Assembly: GCA_018648265.1 (NCBI GenBank)
Contig: JABGRN010000001.1
Span: forward strand, 1-64,000
Direction: 5' to 3'
DNA: 64,000 nt
Source: Prolixibacteraceae bacterium
Lineage (GTDB): Bacteria > Bacteroidota > Bacteroidia > Bacteroidales > Prolixibacteraceae
Below, in pieces: positions 54,554 to 62,046 of the stretch (positions are counted from its first letter, which is position 1; every line of letters starts with the position of its first letter). The position numbers and the translations under genes were made by a program. The notes beneath the pieces were generated by a model that saw only the letters and a list, made by a program, of their open reading frames with translations, was not told the origin of the DNA and ran no database searches.

Positions 54554-57500
54554 TTATTTATATTCATCCCAACTTTTAATGGAAATATCCTCTAAATTAT
54601 ATTTGCAAATTCCATAAATAAAGGCACTGGCAACCCTGGCATTTGTAATTAACGGAATATTATAATCTATAGAATTTCTACGAATTTGATATCCATTTTT
54701 AAGTTCCCGGGTAGTGAGGTTTTTGGGTATATTTATTACTAAATCAATTTTCTTTTCTTTAATAAAATCAATAGTATTAGGAGTTTTTTCTAATTCGTCG
54801 GGCCAATGAAGAAGTGTGTTTTTAACTCCATTTTCTCTAAAAAACCGATGAGTTCCATCAGTGGCAAAAATATTGTAGCCACGCTCCTGAAGCATTCTTG
54901 CCGAAGTTAGTAACTCAATTTTTCCGCGCGATGGACCAGATGAAATAAGAACATTTTTAACCGGAATTTTATAACCCACCGAAAGCATTGCTTTTAAAAT
55001 TGCTTCGTAATAGTTTTCTCCAATACAACCTACTTCTCCGGTAGAAGACATATCAACACCTAAAACCGGGTCGGCATTTAGTAATCGTGCAAACGAAAAT
55101 TGAGGTGCTTTTACTCCAACATAATCCAATTCAAAAAACGATTTGTCCGGTTTTTCAACATTAATTCCGAGCATCACTTTTGTTGCAATTTCAATAAGAT
55201 TCAGTTTCATTACTTTCGAAACAAAAGGAAAACTGCGTGAAGCCCGAAGATTACATTCTATAACTTTAATATCGTTGTCTTTGGCCAAAAACTGCATGTT
55301 AAACGGGCCGGTAATTTGCAATCCTTTTGCTATTTCACGAGCAATTTTTTTAACCCTTCGAATGGTTTCAACATATAATTTTTGGGGTGGAAAAACAATG
55401 GTTGCATCTCCCGAGTGAACACCTGCAAATTCCACATGTTCAGAAATTGCATAAGCAATCATTTCACCATTATTTGCAACCGCGTCAACTTCTATTTCTT
55501 TGGCCTGTTCAATAAATTCTGTTACTACAACCGGGTGTTCTTTCGAAACATTGGTAGCTAATTCCAGAAAATGTTCCAATTGATCGGAATTTGAAACCAC
55601 ATTCATTGCAGCACCAGATAAAACATAAGACGGACGAATCAGCAAAGGATAACCAACAATATCTACAAACTTATGAATCTCTTCGATGGTTGAAAGTCTT
55701 GCCCAACGCGGCTGGTCAACTTTTAAATAATCTAAAAGAGAAGAGAATTTTTCGCGGTCTTCTGCCCTATCAATATCTACCGGCGAAGTACCAAGTATGG
55801 GAACATTTTGACCGTGTAGTTTCATTGCTAAATTATTAGGAATTTGACCTCCCATAGAAACTACAACTCCATGCGGATTTTCCAAATCGACAATATCCAA
55901 AACTCGCTCGAAAGTCAGCTCATCGAAATATAGACGGTCGCAAGTATCGTAATCCGTACTAACAGTTTCCGGGTTATAGTTAATCATTATCGAACGATAA
56001 TTCTCTGATTTAATGGCATTAACCGCATTTACGCTACACCAGTCGAATTCAACTGAACTACCGATTCGGTACGCTCCGGAACCAAGAACAATCACCGATC
56101 GGTCATCGTTGAAAAAATCAATGTCGTGTTCGCTTCCACTGTAAGTCATGTATAAATAATTCGTCTGTGCAGGATATTCTCCAGCCAAAGTGTCAATTTG
56201 TTTTACAAAAGGAAGAACTCCGTTTACCTTCCGATATTCACGAACTTTTAACGAATCGAAGTTTATTTCAGTATTGCTGCTATTCAAAACAAGCCGTGCA
56301 ATTTGAAAATCGGAGAACCCGGCTTTTTTCGAAAGGTTGAGTAAGTTAATGGGAAGATTATTTAATTCATTTACTTTTTCAAGTTCAGTTTTTAAAATGA
56401 TAATGTTTTTCAGTTTATGAAGAAACCAACGGTCAATTTTTGTTTTTTCATAAATTTCGTCAACTGTGTAGTTTTTGTTGAAAGCTTCGGCAATGGCAAA
56501 AATTCTTCTGTCTGTTGGATTTCCTAATTCCGCTTCAATTTCCTGAATGTTGATTTCTTCTTTATTTGCAACAAAACCGTGCATTCCCAAGCCAACCATT
56601 CGAATTCCTTTTTGAATGGCTTCTTCGAAACTACGACCGATGGCCATAATTTCGCCAACACTTTTCATCGAACTTCCAAGGTTTTTTGAAACGCCAACAA
56701 ATTTACTTAAATCCCAACGTGGAATTTTTACCACACAATAGTCGAGTGCAGGTTCAAAAGCAGCTGTTGTAACTTTGGTTACGGAGTTTTTCAGTTCATG
56801 TAAACCATAACCGAGACCCAGTTTTGCGGCAACAAAAGCCAGCGGATAACCAGTTGCTTTCGATGCCAGCGCCGACGAGCGCGATAAACGTGCATTTACT
56901 TCAATTACCCGGTAATCTTCGGAATGTGGATCGAGTGCAAATTGAACATTGCATTCACCAATTACTCCCACCCGACGAATAATTTTTATAGAAATTGCCC
57001 TTAAATTATGGTATTCTGTATTAGAAAGAGTTTGTGATGGTGCAACAACAATACTTTCTCCGGTATGAATTCCCAGAGGATCGAAATTCTCCATATTACA
57101 AACTGTAATACAATTGTCGTATTTGTCGCGTACTACTTCATATTCAACTTCTTTCCATCCTTTAATCGACTCTTCAACTAATATTTGAGGCGAATAAGTA
57201 AATGCTTTTGAAGCAAGAACTTCAAGCTCATTTTGGTTCTCGCAAAATCCGCTTCCAAGTCCTCCCAAAGTATATGCCGCCCTGATAATTATTGGGAAAC
57301 CAATTTTCTTTGCTGCTTCACGAGCTTGTTCCATATTCTCCGCAGCAATACTTTTAGGAGTATAAACATCAATTTCATGCAACATTTTTGAAAAAATGTC
57401 CCTGTCTTCGGTATTAATAATCGATTGCACCGGGGTTCCAACAACTTCAATATTGTATTTTTCAAGCACACCCGATTCGTATAAAGCAACGCCGCAATTT

Positions 57501-57784
57501 AGTGCCGTTTGTCCGCCAAAGGCCAGCAAAATTCCGTCCGGATTCTCTTTCTTAATAACCTCTTCAACAAAATATGGAGTTATCGGAAGAAAATAAATTT
57601 TGTCGGCAATATCTTCAGATGTTTGGATAGTAGCAATATTCGGATTAATAAGAACCGTTTCAACACCTTCTTCTTTAAGTGCTTTTAGTGCCTGCGACCC
57701 TGAATAGTCAAACTCACCGGCTTCGCCAATTTTTAATGCCCCCGAACCGAGAACAATTGCTTTTTTTATGTTGGTTTCTATCAT
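54554..57784 (-). CDS. carB: Carbamoyl-phosphate synthase large subunit
   Basis: A 1076-residue synthetase subunit that makes carbamoyl phosphate for arginine and pyrimidines from bicarbonate, ATP and ammonia delivered by CarA. It has two homologous ATP-grasp halves (N-terminal about 1-400, with GSGALKIGEAGEFDYSGSQA; C-terminal about 550-935, with GSGAYRIGSSVEFDWC), a linking oligomerisation domain about 400-545, and a C-terminal MGS-like allosteric domain about 935-1076. Full length. It starts 43 bp after carA on the same strand. Confidence 0.97.
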   Translation of the reverse strand: MIETNIKKAIVLGSGALKIGEAGEFDYSGSQALKALKEEGVETVLINPNIATIQTSEDIADKIYFLPITPYFVEEVIKKENPDGILLAFGGQTALNCGVALYESGVLEKYNIEVVGTPVQSIINTEDRDIFSKMLHEIDVYTPKSIAAENMEQAREAAKKIGFPIIIRAAYTLGGLGSGFCENQNELEVLASKAFTYSPQILVEESIKGWKEVEYEVVRDKYDNCITVCNMENFDPLGIHTGESIVVAPSQTLSNTEYHNLRAISIKIIRRVGVIGECNVQFALDPHSEDYRVIEVNARLSRSSALASKATGYPLAFVAAKLGLGYGLHELKNSVTKVTTAAFEPALDYCVVKIPRWDLSKFVGVSKNLGSSMKSVGEIMAIGRSFEEAIQKGIRMVGLGMHGFVANKEEINIQEIEAELGNPTDRRIFAIAEAFNKNYTVDEIYEKTKIDRWFLHKLKNIIILKTELEKVNELNNLPINLLNLSKKAGFSDFQIARLVLNSSNTEINFDSLKVREYRKVNGVLPFVKQIDTLAGEYPAQTNYLYMTYSGSEHDIDFFNDDRSVIVLGSGAYRIGSSVEFDWCSVNAVNAIKSENYRSIMINYNPETVSTDYDTCDRLYFDELTFERVLDIVDLENPHGVVVSMGGQIPNNLAMKLHGQNVPILGTSPVDIDRAEDREKFSSLLDYLKVDQPRWARLSTIEEIHKFVDIVGYPLLIRPSYVLSGAAMNVVSNSDQLEHFLELATNVSKEHPVVVTEFIEQAKEIEVDAVANNGEMIAYAISEHVEFAGVHSGDATIVFPPQKLYVETIRRVKKIAREIAKGLQITGPFNMQFLAKDNDIKVIECNLRASRSFPFVSKVMKLNLIEIATKVMLGINVEKPDKSFFELDYVGVKAPQFSFARLLNADPVLGVDMSSTGEVGCIGENYYEAILKAMLSVGYKIPVKNVLISSGPSRGKIELLTSARMLQERGYNIFATDGTHRFFRENGVKNTLLHWPDELEKTPNTIDFIKEKKIDLVINIPKNLTTRELKNGYQIRRNSIDYNIPLITNARVASAFIYGICKYNLEDISIKSWDEYK

Positions 57785-57827: not shown

Positions 57828-58907
57828 CTATTTTTTTGATTTTTCAATACTGCTTATAAAATCATCGAATAAAAACTCGGTATCGGTTGGCCCGCTCGAT
57901 GCTTCGGGATGAAACTGTGTAGAGAAAAAAGGTAAAGTTTTATGCTTGATTCCTTCATTTGTTTCATCATTTACATTGGTGAAAAGCGGTTCCCAATTTT
58001 CAGGTAAAGTTTCTGTTTCAACTGCAAAACCATGATTCTGCGAAGTAATGTAACACTTGTTTGTTCCGTGTAATAAAACTGGCTGGTTGTGGCTCCGATG
58101 ACCGTATTTTAATTTATACGTTTCAGCTCCGGCAGCGCGTGCCAATAATTGATTCCCCAGACAAATACCCATTATGGGAATTTCTTCGTCAATTACTTTT
58201 TTTACATTTTCAACAGTTTCTGCACACATTACGGGGTCGCCCGGGCCGTTAGAAACAAAAACCCCATCGTATTTTTCGTTGCTAAAGTCGTAGTTCCACG
58301 GAACACGAATTACAGTTGAGTTTCTTTCGAGCAAACAACGAATGATGTTATTTTTTACACCGCAGTCAATCAAAACTACTTTGTGCTCACCATCGCCATA
58401 AACTTCCTTTTTTTCGCAGCTTGCAACAGCAACAAGATTCTCTTTATTCGGGTCGTAAAATTCAATTTCTTTTTCAAACTCAATTTTACCGAGCATCGAA
58501 CCTTTCTCACGTAAAATTTTTGTTAAGGCTCGGGTATCAATGTCAAAAAGGCCTGGAACGTTGTATTCTTTTAACCAGTCGGCCAAACTTTTTTCTGCAT
58601 TCCAATGACTAAATTCAAACGAATAATCTGAAACAATTAAACCCGAAATGTGTAATTTATTCGACTCATAATGTTTGTGAATTCCATTCTCTTTTTGGTT
58701 AAACGGAACTCCGTAATTCCCAATCATTGGATACGTTGAAACTAAAATTTGACCTGTGTACGACGGGTCGGTTAAACTTTCCGGATAACCTGTCATTGCT
58801 GTATAAAATACAACTTCACCGGCAACGGCGGTTTCGCTTCCAAACGATTTCCCTGTAAAAACTGTGCCGTCTTCGAGTGTGAGTTTTGCTTTTTTTACTT
58901 CCAACAT
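57828..58907 (-). CDS. carA: Carbamoyl-phosphate synthase small subunit
   Basis: A 359-residue glutaminase subunit. The N-terminal CPSase_sm_chain domain (about 5-135) contains YTAMTGYPESLTDPSYTGQI. The class I glutamine amidotransferase domain has nucleophile C249 in MGICLGNQLLARAAG and the His-Glu pair in TQFHPEASSGPTD. It is first in the carAB operon, and its leader carries an attenuator-like terminator and a small Arg-containing ORF. It is divergent from argR. Confidence 0.97.
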   Translation of the reverse strand: MLEVKKAKLTLEDGTVFTGKSFGSETAVAGEVVFYTAMTGYPESLTDPSYTGQILVSTYPMIGNYGVPFNQKENGIHKHYESNKLHISGLIVSDYSFEFSHWNAEKSLADWLKEYNVPGLFDIDTRALTKILREKGSMLGKIEFEKEIEFYDPNKENLVAVASCEKKEVYGDGEHKVVLIDCGVKNNIIRCLLERNSTVIRVPWNYDFSNEKYDGVFVSNGPGDPVMCAETVENVKKVIDEEIPIMGICLGNQLLARAAGAETYKLKYGHRSHNQPVLLHGTNKCYITSQNHGFAVETETLPENWEPLFTNVNDETNEGIKHKTLPFFSTQFHPEASSGPTDTEFLFDDFISSIEKSKK

Positions 58908-58924
58908 TATTCAAGTGTTATATT

Positions 58925-58962
58925 AAAAAAATGCGCTTGCACTAAAAATAGTACAAACGCAT
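58925..58962 (-). terminator. carA leader terminator (candidate attenuator)
   Basis: On the minus strand ATGCGTTTGTACTA pairs over its full length with TAGTGCAAGCGCAT (two G-U pairs, 14 bp) around a UUUU loop, then six U residues. It ends 18 nt before the carA ATG. No other minus-strand gene lies upstream, so it can only end the carA transcript itself. A competing pair (58974-58986 with 58949-58957, 9 bp with a 3-nt bulge) would sequester its first arm. Confidence 0.75.
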
Positions 58963-58967
58963 CGTTT

Positions 58968-59033
58968 TCAGTCTTTTGTATTACTAAATTTTATCTTTCT
59001 TCTCATTAACTTAAAATGGCGATCTTCATTCAT
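58968..59033 (-). CDS. carA leader peptide (Arg-containing)
   Basis: A 21-codon ATG frame between the divergent region and the leader terminator. Arg codons are at position 5 (CGC) and at 11-12 (AGA AGA); Lys codons are also frequent. The TGA stop is 5 nt before the terminator stem. Codons 16-20 form the upstream arm of a possible antiterminator. A ribosome stalled at the paired Arg codons would leave that arm free, and one at the stop would cover it. Translation is not proven. The nearest -7 box (TATTTTTG, 59050-59043) would give only a few nt of 5' leader. Confidence 0.6.
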   Translation of the reverse strand: MNEDRHFKLMRRKIKFSNTKD

Positions 59034-59072
59034 TTCAGATTACAAAAATAGAAATAATTCTTAAACTTTTAG

Positions 59073-59102
59073 ATTGTTTTTCAAATAAAATGTATAAATT
59101 TG
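59073..59102 (+). promoter_or_regulatory. argR promoter
   Basis: ATTG (59073-59076), 18 bases, then TAAATTTG (59095-59102), an exact -7 match. Transcription would start at about 59109, inside or just before the ARG-box palindrome. Confidence 0.55.
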
Positions 59103-59110
59103 CAAAAGAA

Positions 59111-59126
59111 ATGAATATTTATTCAT
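59111..59126. promoter_or_regulatory. ARG-box operator
   Basis: ATGAATATTTATTCAT is a palindrome fitting the ARG-box consensus (TGAAT-N4-ATTCA). It lies directly in front of the argR ATG at 59128, so ArgR bound here would block its own start region, and perhaps carA from the other side. Confidence 0.7.
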
Positions 59127-59127
59127 A

Positions 59128-59607
59128 ATGAAAGACAAGGTAAAAAGGCAATTAGAAATACGAAAAATTATTTTCAAAGGTAATGTTCAAAGTCAGGATG
59201 AGCTGCTTGCTGTTCTAAAACAAAAAGGTTTTGATTTAACACAGGCAACTTTGTCGAGAGATTTGAAGATTTTACAGGTTGCAAAAGTACCTCACCCGGC
59301 AAAAGGTTATGTTTATGTTATTCCTGAAAACGGACAACGGGAAAGTTTAAAAGAACAAACAAGAGTAAATTATTTGGCTGACGGGTTCAGGGACTTGCAA
59401 TTCTCCGGTAATCTTGCTGTTTTGAGAACTTTACCTGGTTATGCCAGTAGTATTGCGGTTGTAATCGACAAAGCAAATCCATGGGAAATTTTAGGAACAA
59501 TTGCCGGCGATGATACAATTCTGATTATTCAGAGAGAAGGAATTTCGAAAACAGATTTAACAAGTGCTTTAATAAAAGTGATGCCGAATTTAAAAAGTAA
59601 ATTATAG
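59128..59607 (+). CDS. argR: Arginine repressor
   Basis: A 159-residue hexameric repressor and activator of arginine metabolism. The N-terminal winged helix (about 5-72) contains [28 protein letters not shown]; the C-terminal Arg-binding domain (about 85-155) contains [33 protein letters not shown]. It is preceded by a perfect ARG box, implying autoregulation. It heads a same-strand arginine gene run. Confidence 0.95.
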
Positions 59608-61680: not shown

Positions 61681-62046
61681 ATGAATAAATATGATTTGGA
61701 GGAAAGGTTGATTTGGTTTTCGGTCAGGATAATTGAATTGTCTGATTTTCTGCATAAAACAATTGCTGGAAGTCACTTAAACAAACAACTTGTTCGTTCG
61801 GCTACTTCACCGGCATTTAATTATGGTGAAGCCCAAAGTGCCGAATCTCCAAGAGATTTTATTCACAAAATGGGTGTTTGCCTGAAAGAACTATGTGAGA
61901 CTTTCATTAATATTAAGATTATCAAATATGCCAAATTATCAGGGAATGAAAAATTATTGGATATGTGCTATGCTGAAAACAACGAGTTAATTTCAATTTT
62001 CGTAAAAAGCATTGAAACGGCAAAAAGAAACAATAGTAAAATATGA
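61681..62046 (+). CDS. Four-helix-bundle protein (S23/IVS family)
   Basis: A 121-residue helical protein of the 23S-rRNA intervening-sequence / four-helix-bundle family (PF05635-like): LEERLIWFSVRIIELSDFL, NKQLVRSATSPAFNYGEAQSAE, then KMGVCLKELCETFINIKII. Members are encoded at scattered genomic places and resemble the Avd protein of diversity-generating retroelements; their function is unsettled. It interrupts an arginine operon between argG and argC and is flanked by short repeated phrases, suggesting an insertion. Confidence 0.82.
   Translation: MNKYDLEERLIWFSVRIIELSDFLHKTIAGSHLNKQLVRSATSPAFNYGEAQSAESPRDFIHKMGVCLKELCETFINIKIIKYAKLSGNEKLLDMCYAENNELISIFVKSIETAKRNNSKI

Follow-up and report, generated by a model that had tools for sequence, protein, structure and literature searches.

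The window, a 64,000-nucleotide stretch from the start of a Prolixibacteraceae contig to which all positions below refer, carries on its minus strand the genes for the two subunits of carbamoyl-phosphate synthase: carA, the small subunit (57828–58907, ATG at 58907; TIGR01368 above cut-off), and carB, the large subunit (54554–57784; TIGR01369 above cut-off). The closest named relatives of this carA, at 84–89% identity, come from Draconibacterium, Maribellus, Tangfeifania and MAGs, some of them labelled Prolixibacteraceae. Divergent from carA lies an argR-like gene (59128–59607, plus strand), whose best match, TIGR01529 argR, scores 129.3 bits, just under the cut-off of 130.45. It belongs to a plus-strand arginine cluster together with a GNAT acetyltransferase gene, an argG-like gene, argC and an argD-like gene; the argR and argG matches fall under their curated cut-offs, and argD is cut by the window end. 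Within this cluster, between the argG-like gene and argC, sits a gene of the TIGR02436 four-helix-bundle family (61681–62046, plus strand).

The space between carA and the argR-like gene holds an ARG-box-like palindrome, TGAATATTTATTCA (59112–59125), and a second, weaker one (59091–59104), 21 bp away centre to centre, both called against what we take to be the ARG-box consensus. The pair (59091–59125) overlaps the putative argR promoter, whose element, TAAATTTG, lies at 59095–59102 on the plus strand. Matches with at most one mismatch number 4 in the window against 3.3 expected, which is not above chance, so the weight of these sites rests on their position and their recurrence in relatives; as placed, they would fit autoregulation of argR and possible control of carA by ArgR.

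Read along the minus strand, the carA leader consists of a promoter element, a small open reading frame (ORF) and an intrinsic terminator, followed by carA itself. The promoter −7 element, TATTTTTG (59043–59050, minus strand), is of the TAnnTTTG type, which we take to be the Bacteroidota −7 consensus; with transcription starts placed throughout at TAnnTTTG plus 6 nt, transcription would begin near 59036. The terminator hairpin, GATGCGTTTGTACTA-TTTT-TAGTGCAAGCGCATT (58930–58963, minus strand; −20.6 kcal/mol), has a stem of 15 pairs including G·U and a loop of 4, runs into a U-run whose remainder occupies 58925–58929 on the same strand, and ends 22 nt before carA. The original prediction had described a perfect 14-bp stem with a UUUU loop and a U-run; hairpin and U-run are indeed there, but the stem is perfect only if G·U pairs are allowed. 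The carA leader folds with z = −2.93, only 1 of 200 shuffles being at least as stable. A known Rfam element was considered as an identity for the leader and dropped, the window containing no Rfam match at gathering score.

Full carA matches were found in 127 of 140 genomes of the family; we examined 115 of the 127 (23 genera), and all 115 loci have a leader terminator. The strict motif ATGCG…CGCATTTTT accounts for 106 of them; in the remaining 9 the leader hairpin departs from that motif but is still followed by a U-run. This conservation is stronger evidence for the terminator than the comparison with shuffled folds. Alignments and ORF counts begin with 85 of 105 unique loci, after removal of those that were terminator-less, those with over 60 nt separating terminator and carA ATG (including L060) and six non-family or other-phylum loci excluded by hand; 83 of the 85 have a TAnnTTTG element no more than 130 nt ahead of the stem. 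From these leaders we drew 54 representatives less than 75% identical over 60 nt (L004, with too little sequence, was dropped), and a further 20 later loci (genera g19, g24, g28, g29 and others) served for terminator presence and the start-codon test only. The loop and upper stem of the terminator vary freely. Across 65 distinct terminators the 5′ arm AUGCGUUU (58955–58962, minus strand) is constrained in sequence: its position 6 is T in 61 of 65, opposite A in 34 and G in 27, and its position 7 is T in all 65, opposite A in 48 and G in 17. The pattern ATGCGTTT N8-34 CGCATTTTT occurs once in the window's genome; a regulon of like hairpins in this genome is thereby ruled out.

Upstream of the stem, the original prediction had read a 21-codon frame, MNEDRHFKLMRRKIKFSNTKD* (59033–58968, minus strand), with an AGA AGA pair and a CGC codon and with a TGA stop (58970–58968) about 5 nt before the stem, and all of these are present in the sequence. 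That the leader encodes a genuine, selected ORF is also upheld, but with a different beginning: the upstream ATG at 59033 is not a conserved start, and the conserved one is the in-frame ATG at 59006, so that the likely peptide is the 12-codon MRRKIKFSNTKD (58968–59006, minus strand), with AGA AGA as codons 2–3. Frames that begin in relatives at ATGs near the putative transcription start often end early or run in a different frame. With leaders aligned at the terminator, an ATG falls 42–47 nt before the stem in 29 of 54 representatives (30 triplets), whereas the richest 6-nt window of 1000 shuffled sets holds 11.3 triplets on average and never more than 18. With GTG counted as well as ATG and the interval taken as 36–48 nt before the stem, 43 of 54 leaders have such a triplet, where 300 shuffles average 15.4 and reach 27 at most. 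The frame of the conserved ATG stays open to 17 nt before the stem in all 31 leaders concerned, where 15.9 would be expected, and the other two frames of the same leaders are open in 25 of 62 cases. Among the 20 later loci, 16 have an ATG or GTG in the 36–48-nt interval; of the 10 diverged loci in this set 7 do, a number that 9 of 500 shuffles equalled or exceeded (shuffled mean 3.3). The conservation of both start position and open frame indicates that the short ORF is under selection and presumably translated. Comparison of sequences across relatives thus confirms the carA leader terminator as real and family-wide, and the short ORF that goes with it as real and under selection.

The peptide itself looks free. 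Leader ORFs at carA are mostly 9–20 codons long, their products vary across relatives from MRRKIKFSNTKD to MAEKVYLKISIKNN, and pN/pS is 1.54 over 28 non-independent close pairs, with no apparent sign of selection on amino acids. A start codon 36–48 nt before the stem is absent from 11 of the 54 representatives, 7 of which belong to genera g18 and g22, and from 4 of the later 20 loci; the GTGs of g19 and g25 sit almost at the putative transcription start, and some of them may therefore be there by chance. By eye, g18 and g22 have only AUA at the position of their relatives' ATG. In g18 leaders (for example L096, L099 and L107), again by eye, this AUA precedes a frame resembling MAEKVYLKI, such as GKRVCLKITT; use of AUA as a start codon in the carA leaders of g18 is possible. 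A 5′ hairpin upstream of the ORF, promising by eye in the window's genus, was dropped by RNAalifold.

The same lineage offers a second leader for comparison. We sampled 30 of the 32 pyrB matches over cut-off in the window's genus (L136–L165) and examined 27 loci from across the family (L221–L247). A leader terminator is present at 29 of the 30 genus loci (L163 read by eye, its start having been misplaced by the script), consisting of a conserved CCAACA...TGTTGG, with U-rich tracts in the leader: the 50 nt before the stem are 39% U (29 loci). The genus pyrB leader ORF starts near the putative transcription start, crosses the terminator in 25 of 30 loci, and 4 others have it stopping 5–6 nt short of the terminator. 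The copy in the genome to which the window belongs (L147) encodes a peptide starting MMKHQISLYF, and its stop codon and the start of pyrB overlap. E. coli pyrL, taken from the NC_000913 sequence, is built on the same plan. Of the 27 pyrB loci examined in the family, 22 have a leader terminator. The five without one (L224 and L229, both of g19; L235 and L236, both of g25; and L237 of g26) show that the two attenuators do not always occur together, since the carA loci of g19, g25 and g26 have a leader terminator despite its absence at pyrB. At pyrE we found no leader terminator in 30 loci, a set in which the script misassigned several start codons; the few hairpins seen there are weak and lie upstream of the promoter element. 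That the lineage has pyrBI-like pyrB leaders makes a pyrimidine signal at the carA leader plausible, without amounting to proof, and we regard such a signal as likely.

A leader terminator together with a selected, presumably translated ORF implies attenuation, and in this the original prediction stands; the carA leader is most likely a translation-coupled attenuator of carAB. On balance we favour, as probable though by no means secure, a version in which it responds to pyrimidine supply and arginine is left to ArgR. RNA polymerase would initiate near 59036, and a ribosome would begin the 12-codon ORF about 44 nt before the strong terminator. A ribosome following closely would occupy the last codons or the stop, about 5 nt from the stem, covering the 5′ arm; the hairpin would then be blocked and transcription would continue into carAB. 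Should polymerase outrun the ribosome, the terminator would form and carAB would be off. Low UTP, by slowing polymerase, would supply the pyrimidine signal, as at E. coli pyrBI and pyrE and the Pseudomonas aeruginosa carA leader, and neither the peptide sequence nor its Arg codons would matter to the switch; arginine control of carAB would act through ArgR. Both this polarity, with translation turning carAB on, and the pyrimidine signal are what we infer from the leader's architecture, and the polarity is that of pyrBI as PMC5021804 describes it. The original prediction had it the other way, with a ribosome at the stop turning expression off; this is not supported, because a ribosome stopped about 5 nt from the stem is expected to cover the terminator itself. 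According to the reporter experiments described in PMC4824070, a stop 5 bp before terminator tR2 lowered termination in E. coli from ~90% to <10%, from which it follows that a ribosome finishing the carA leader should switch carAB on.

The original prediction had instead proposed arginine attenuation of the his/trp kind, in which an antiterminator becomes free to form when the ribosome stalls on AGA AGA. The AGA AGA pair is there, and carA does serve arginine synthesis, but the comparison with relatives makes this reading distinctly improbable. In the 43 of the 54 representatives that have an ATG or GTG 36–48 nt before the stem, Arg codons before the stem are at chance level (44 of 511 codons, where dinucleotide shuffles give 45.4, sd 5.6), 3 ORFs have two Arg codons side by side (shuffled 3.1), and 11 ORFs have no Arg codon before the stem at all, so the window's AGA AGA is not a conserved sensor; when the conserved start is used, moreover, the pair falls at codons 2–3. 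Loss of the Arg codons or the ORF from relatives that keep the terminator had been named as what would count against the idea, and it has come about for the Arg codons; the ORF, by contrast, is still there in most relatives. The proposed antiterminator, formed by codons 16–20 and the first arm of the terminator, can be drawn with 8 pairs and a 3-nt bulge, but at +0.3 kcal/mol; the best fold of that stretch reaches −2.8 kcal/mol, against −20.6 for the terminator. Nor does it hold up as a conserved element: in 83 leaders, pairing with the terminator's first arm is not enriched and, at a mean z of +0.41, falls slightly short of the shuffled level, although the 9 loci of g25 and g33, whose leaders are short, lean modestly towards stronger pairing (z −0.2 to −1.8); RNAalifold of 26 aligned leaders returned the terminator alone. 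The position of the stop points the same way. All 43 leader ORFs stop at −16 to +97 nt as counted from the stem, none more than 16 nt upstream (about 5 nt in the window), whereas amino-acid attenuators, as PMC4824070 presents them, separate the leader gene from the terminator by over 20 bp, a clearance seen in none of the 43. What the carA leader shows is what pyrBI- and pyrE-type attenuators show: a leader ORF that ends beside or inside the terminator, and neither control codons (Arg being those checked) nor an antiterminator.

The coupling could also be as we propose while its signal is not pyrimidines but growth rate, the overall capacity for translation or, the leader being A-rich, the supply of ATP. 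In the last 40 nt ahead of the carA stem, U makes up 21% and A 51% (84 loci). No pyrBI-like U-rich tract precedes the stem, so a UTP-sensitive pause is not obvious, although some U occurs in the terminator's 5′ arm (37% of its first 14 nt). Against such an input stand the U-rich, pyrBI-like form of pyrB in the same genomes and the studied analogue, P. aeruginosa carA, which answers to pyrimidines (as reported in PMC4997734), and we hold it to be unlikely, if well worth keeping in view. Direct recognition of the 5′ arm AUGCGUUU, by a protein, a trans RNA or a programmed polymerase pause that lets the ribosome catch up, would account for the one-sidedness of its constraint, T being kept while the partner is A or G, and for a hairpin pattern unique in the genome. 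The arm might be a pause signal or binding site; yet the terminator stem at pyrB also changes slowly, which means that a slow rate by itself is no proof of a partner and the constraint is a lead only, and the loop and upper stem are free to vary, which together leave recognition a rather poor prospect. That the hairpin terminates something else, or regulates nothing, is hardly credible. Chance does readily produce weak terminator-like sites (4 in a local scan, 3.3 expected), but in 83 of 85 leaders the carA terminator has the promoter element on one side and carA on the other, and it recurs at every one of the 115 loci; as the original prediction had rightly stated, no other gene needs it, since none of at least 80 codons ends upstream on the same strand and argR is divergent, and we set aside its assignment to another gene. 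A PyrR-controlled attenuator was likewise set aside: the window's genome has no match to PyrR (NF003545) over cut-off, the best scoring 34 bits against 140, a threshold that only 4 of 14 control genomes pass.

Returning to a translation-coupled carAB attenuator that probably reads pyrimidine supply, we can also offer, tentatively and with more doubt than belief, a fuller version in which the family uses two translation-coupled attenuators of different construction, one at carAB, where carbamoyl phosphate is made, and one at pyrB, which uses it on the pyrimidine side. The carA form would be a minimal one, with a start ~42–47 nt from the terminator, a 5′ arm AUGCGUUU acting as a programmed nucleotide-sensitive polymerase pause, a free peptide and possibly an AUA start in one genus.

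The nearest counterpart by description is the carAB leader of P. aeruginosa (and the P. syringae P32 RNA), where a single promoter is followed by a stem-loop or terminator before carA and a leader peptide; as PMC4997734 recounts from earlier work, the stem-loop is needed for pyrimidine control and dispensable for arginine control, which is separate. That organism belongs to a different phylum, the likeness is drawn from published description, and in Prolixibacteraceae carA the start-to-stem spacing is conserved. At E. coli pyrBI, as proposed for carA, the ribosome translating the leader ORF keeps a terminator that overlaps or adjoins it from acting, and there are no control codons, but pyrL has 44 codons, runs through the terminator and has a U-rich tract, whereas the carA ORF is short, A-rich and often stops before the stem. 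In the E. coli pyrE attenuator the upstream ORF ends a few nucleotides before the terminator and its translation there allows read-through; the window's carA leader ORF also ends a few nucleotides before its terminator, although the E. coli ORF is a full gene, rph. As at carA, the biosynthetic operons governed by his-, trp- and ilv-type attenuators are preceded by a short leader ORF with an intrinsic terminator, but the carA leader has no regulatory codon run or antiterminator, and its stop is too near the terminator.

In fungi, the arginine attenuator peptide of CPA1/arg-2 is encoded by an upstream ORF before the gene for the small subunit of carbamoyl-phosphate synthase and acts in translation, by nascent-peptide stalling that depends on conserved residues, of which the carA leader peptide gives no sign. 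The carA (SRC-12-1) motif of Polynucleobacter (Betaproteobacteria; 30 representatives) likewise places a structured leader immediately before carA, and its description in PMC8632094 is of an extended imperfect hairpin and possible riboswitch, not of a leader ORF with a terminator. E. coli carAB, in the account of PMC6245113, is controlled by ArgR and by UTP-dependent reiterative initiation, attenuation not being involved at its arginine-controlled promoter. Transcriptomics of Flavobacterium psychrophilum has given clues for leader-peptide attenuation before amino-acid operons (as noted in PMC9723704), so the mere presence of leader peptides is nothing new for Bacteroidota; among the matches listed by our search of open-licence literature, we found no such leader at carA or pyrB in this phylum.

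Within one Bacteroidota family, then, a leader ORF and terminator precede carAB, and mostly a pyrBI-like leader precedes pyrB. Bacteroidota mostly initiate translation without Shine–Dalgarno pairing. If our reading is correct, translation-coupled, nucleotide-sensing attenuation extends to this phylum, and tight coupling of ribosome and polymerase becomes testable there.

Beyond the family, none of 43 carA loci from other families in the same order has the ATGCG...CGCAT terminator; one match to the bare letters (L209) was rejected, having neither hairpin nor U-run. A different terminator lies downstream of a promoter-like box at 4 of these 43 loci (L203, L216, L255 and L259). In L216, L255 and L259 we noticed by eye a short ORF ending at the stem of the carA leader terminator, encoding MMKKKKIYNILYKKEQIC, MITTKKIYKVL and MGWKTSYSAQIVKSR, respectively.
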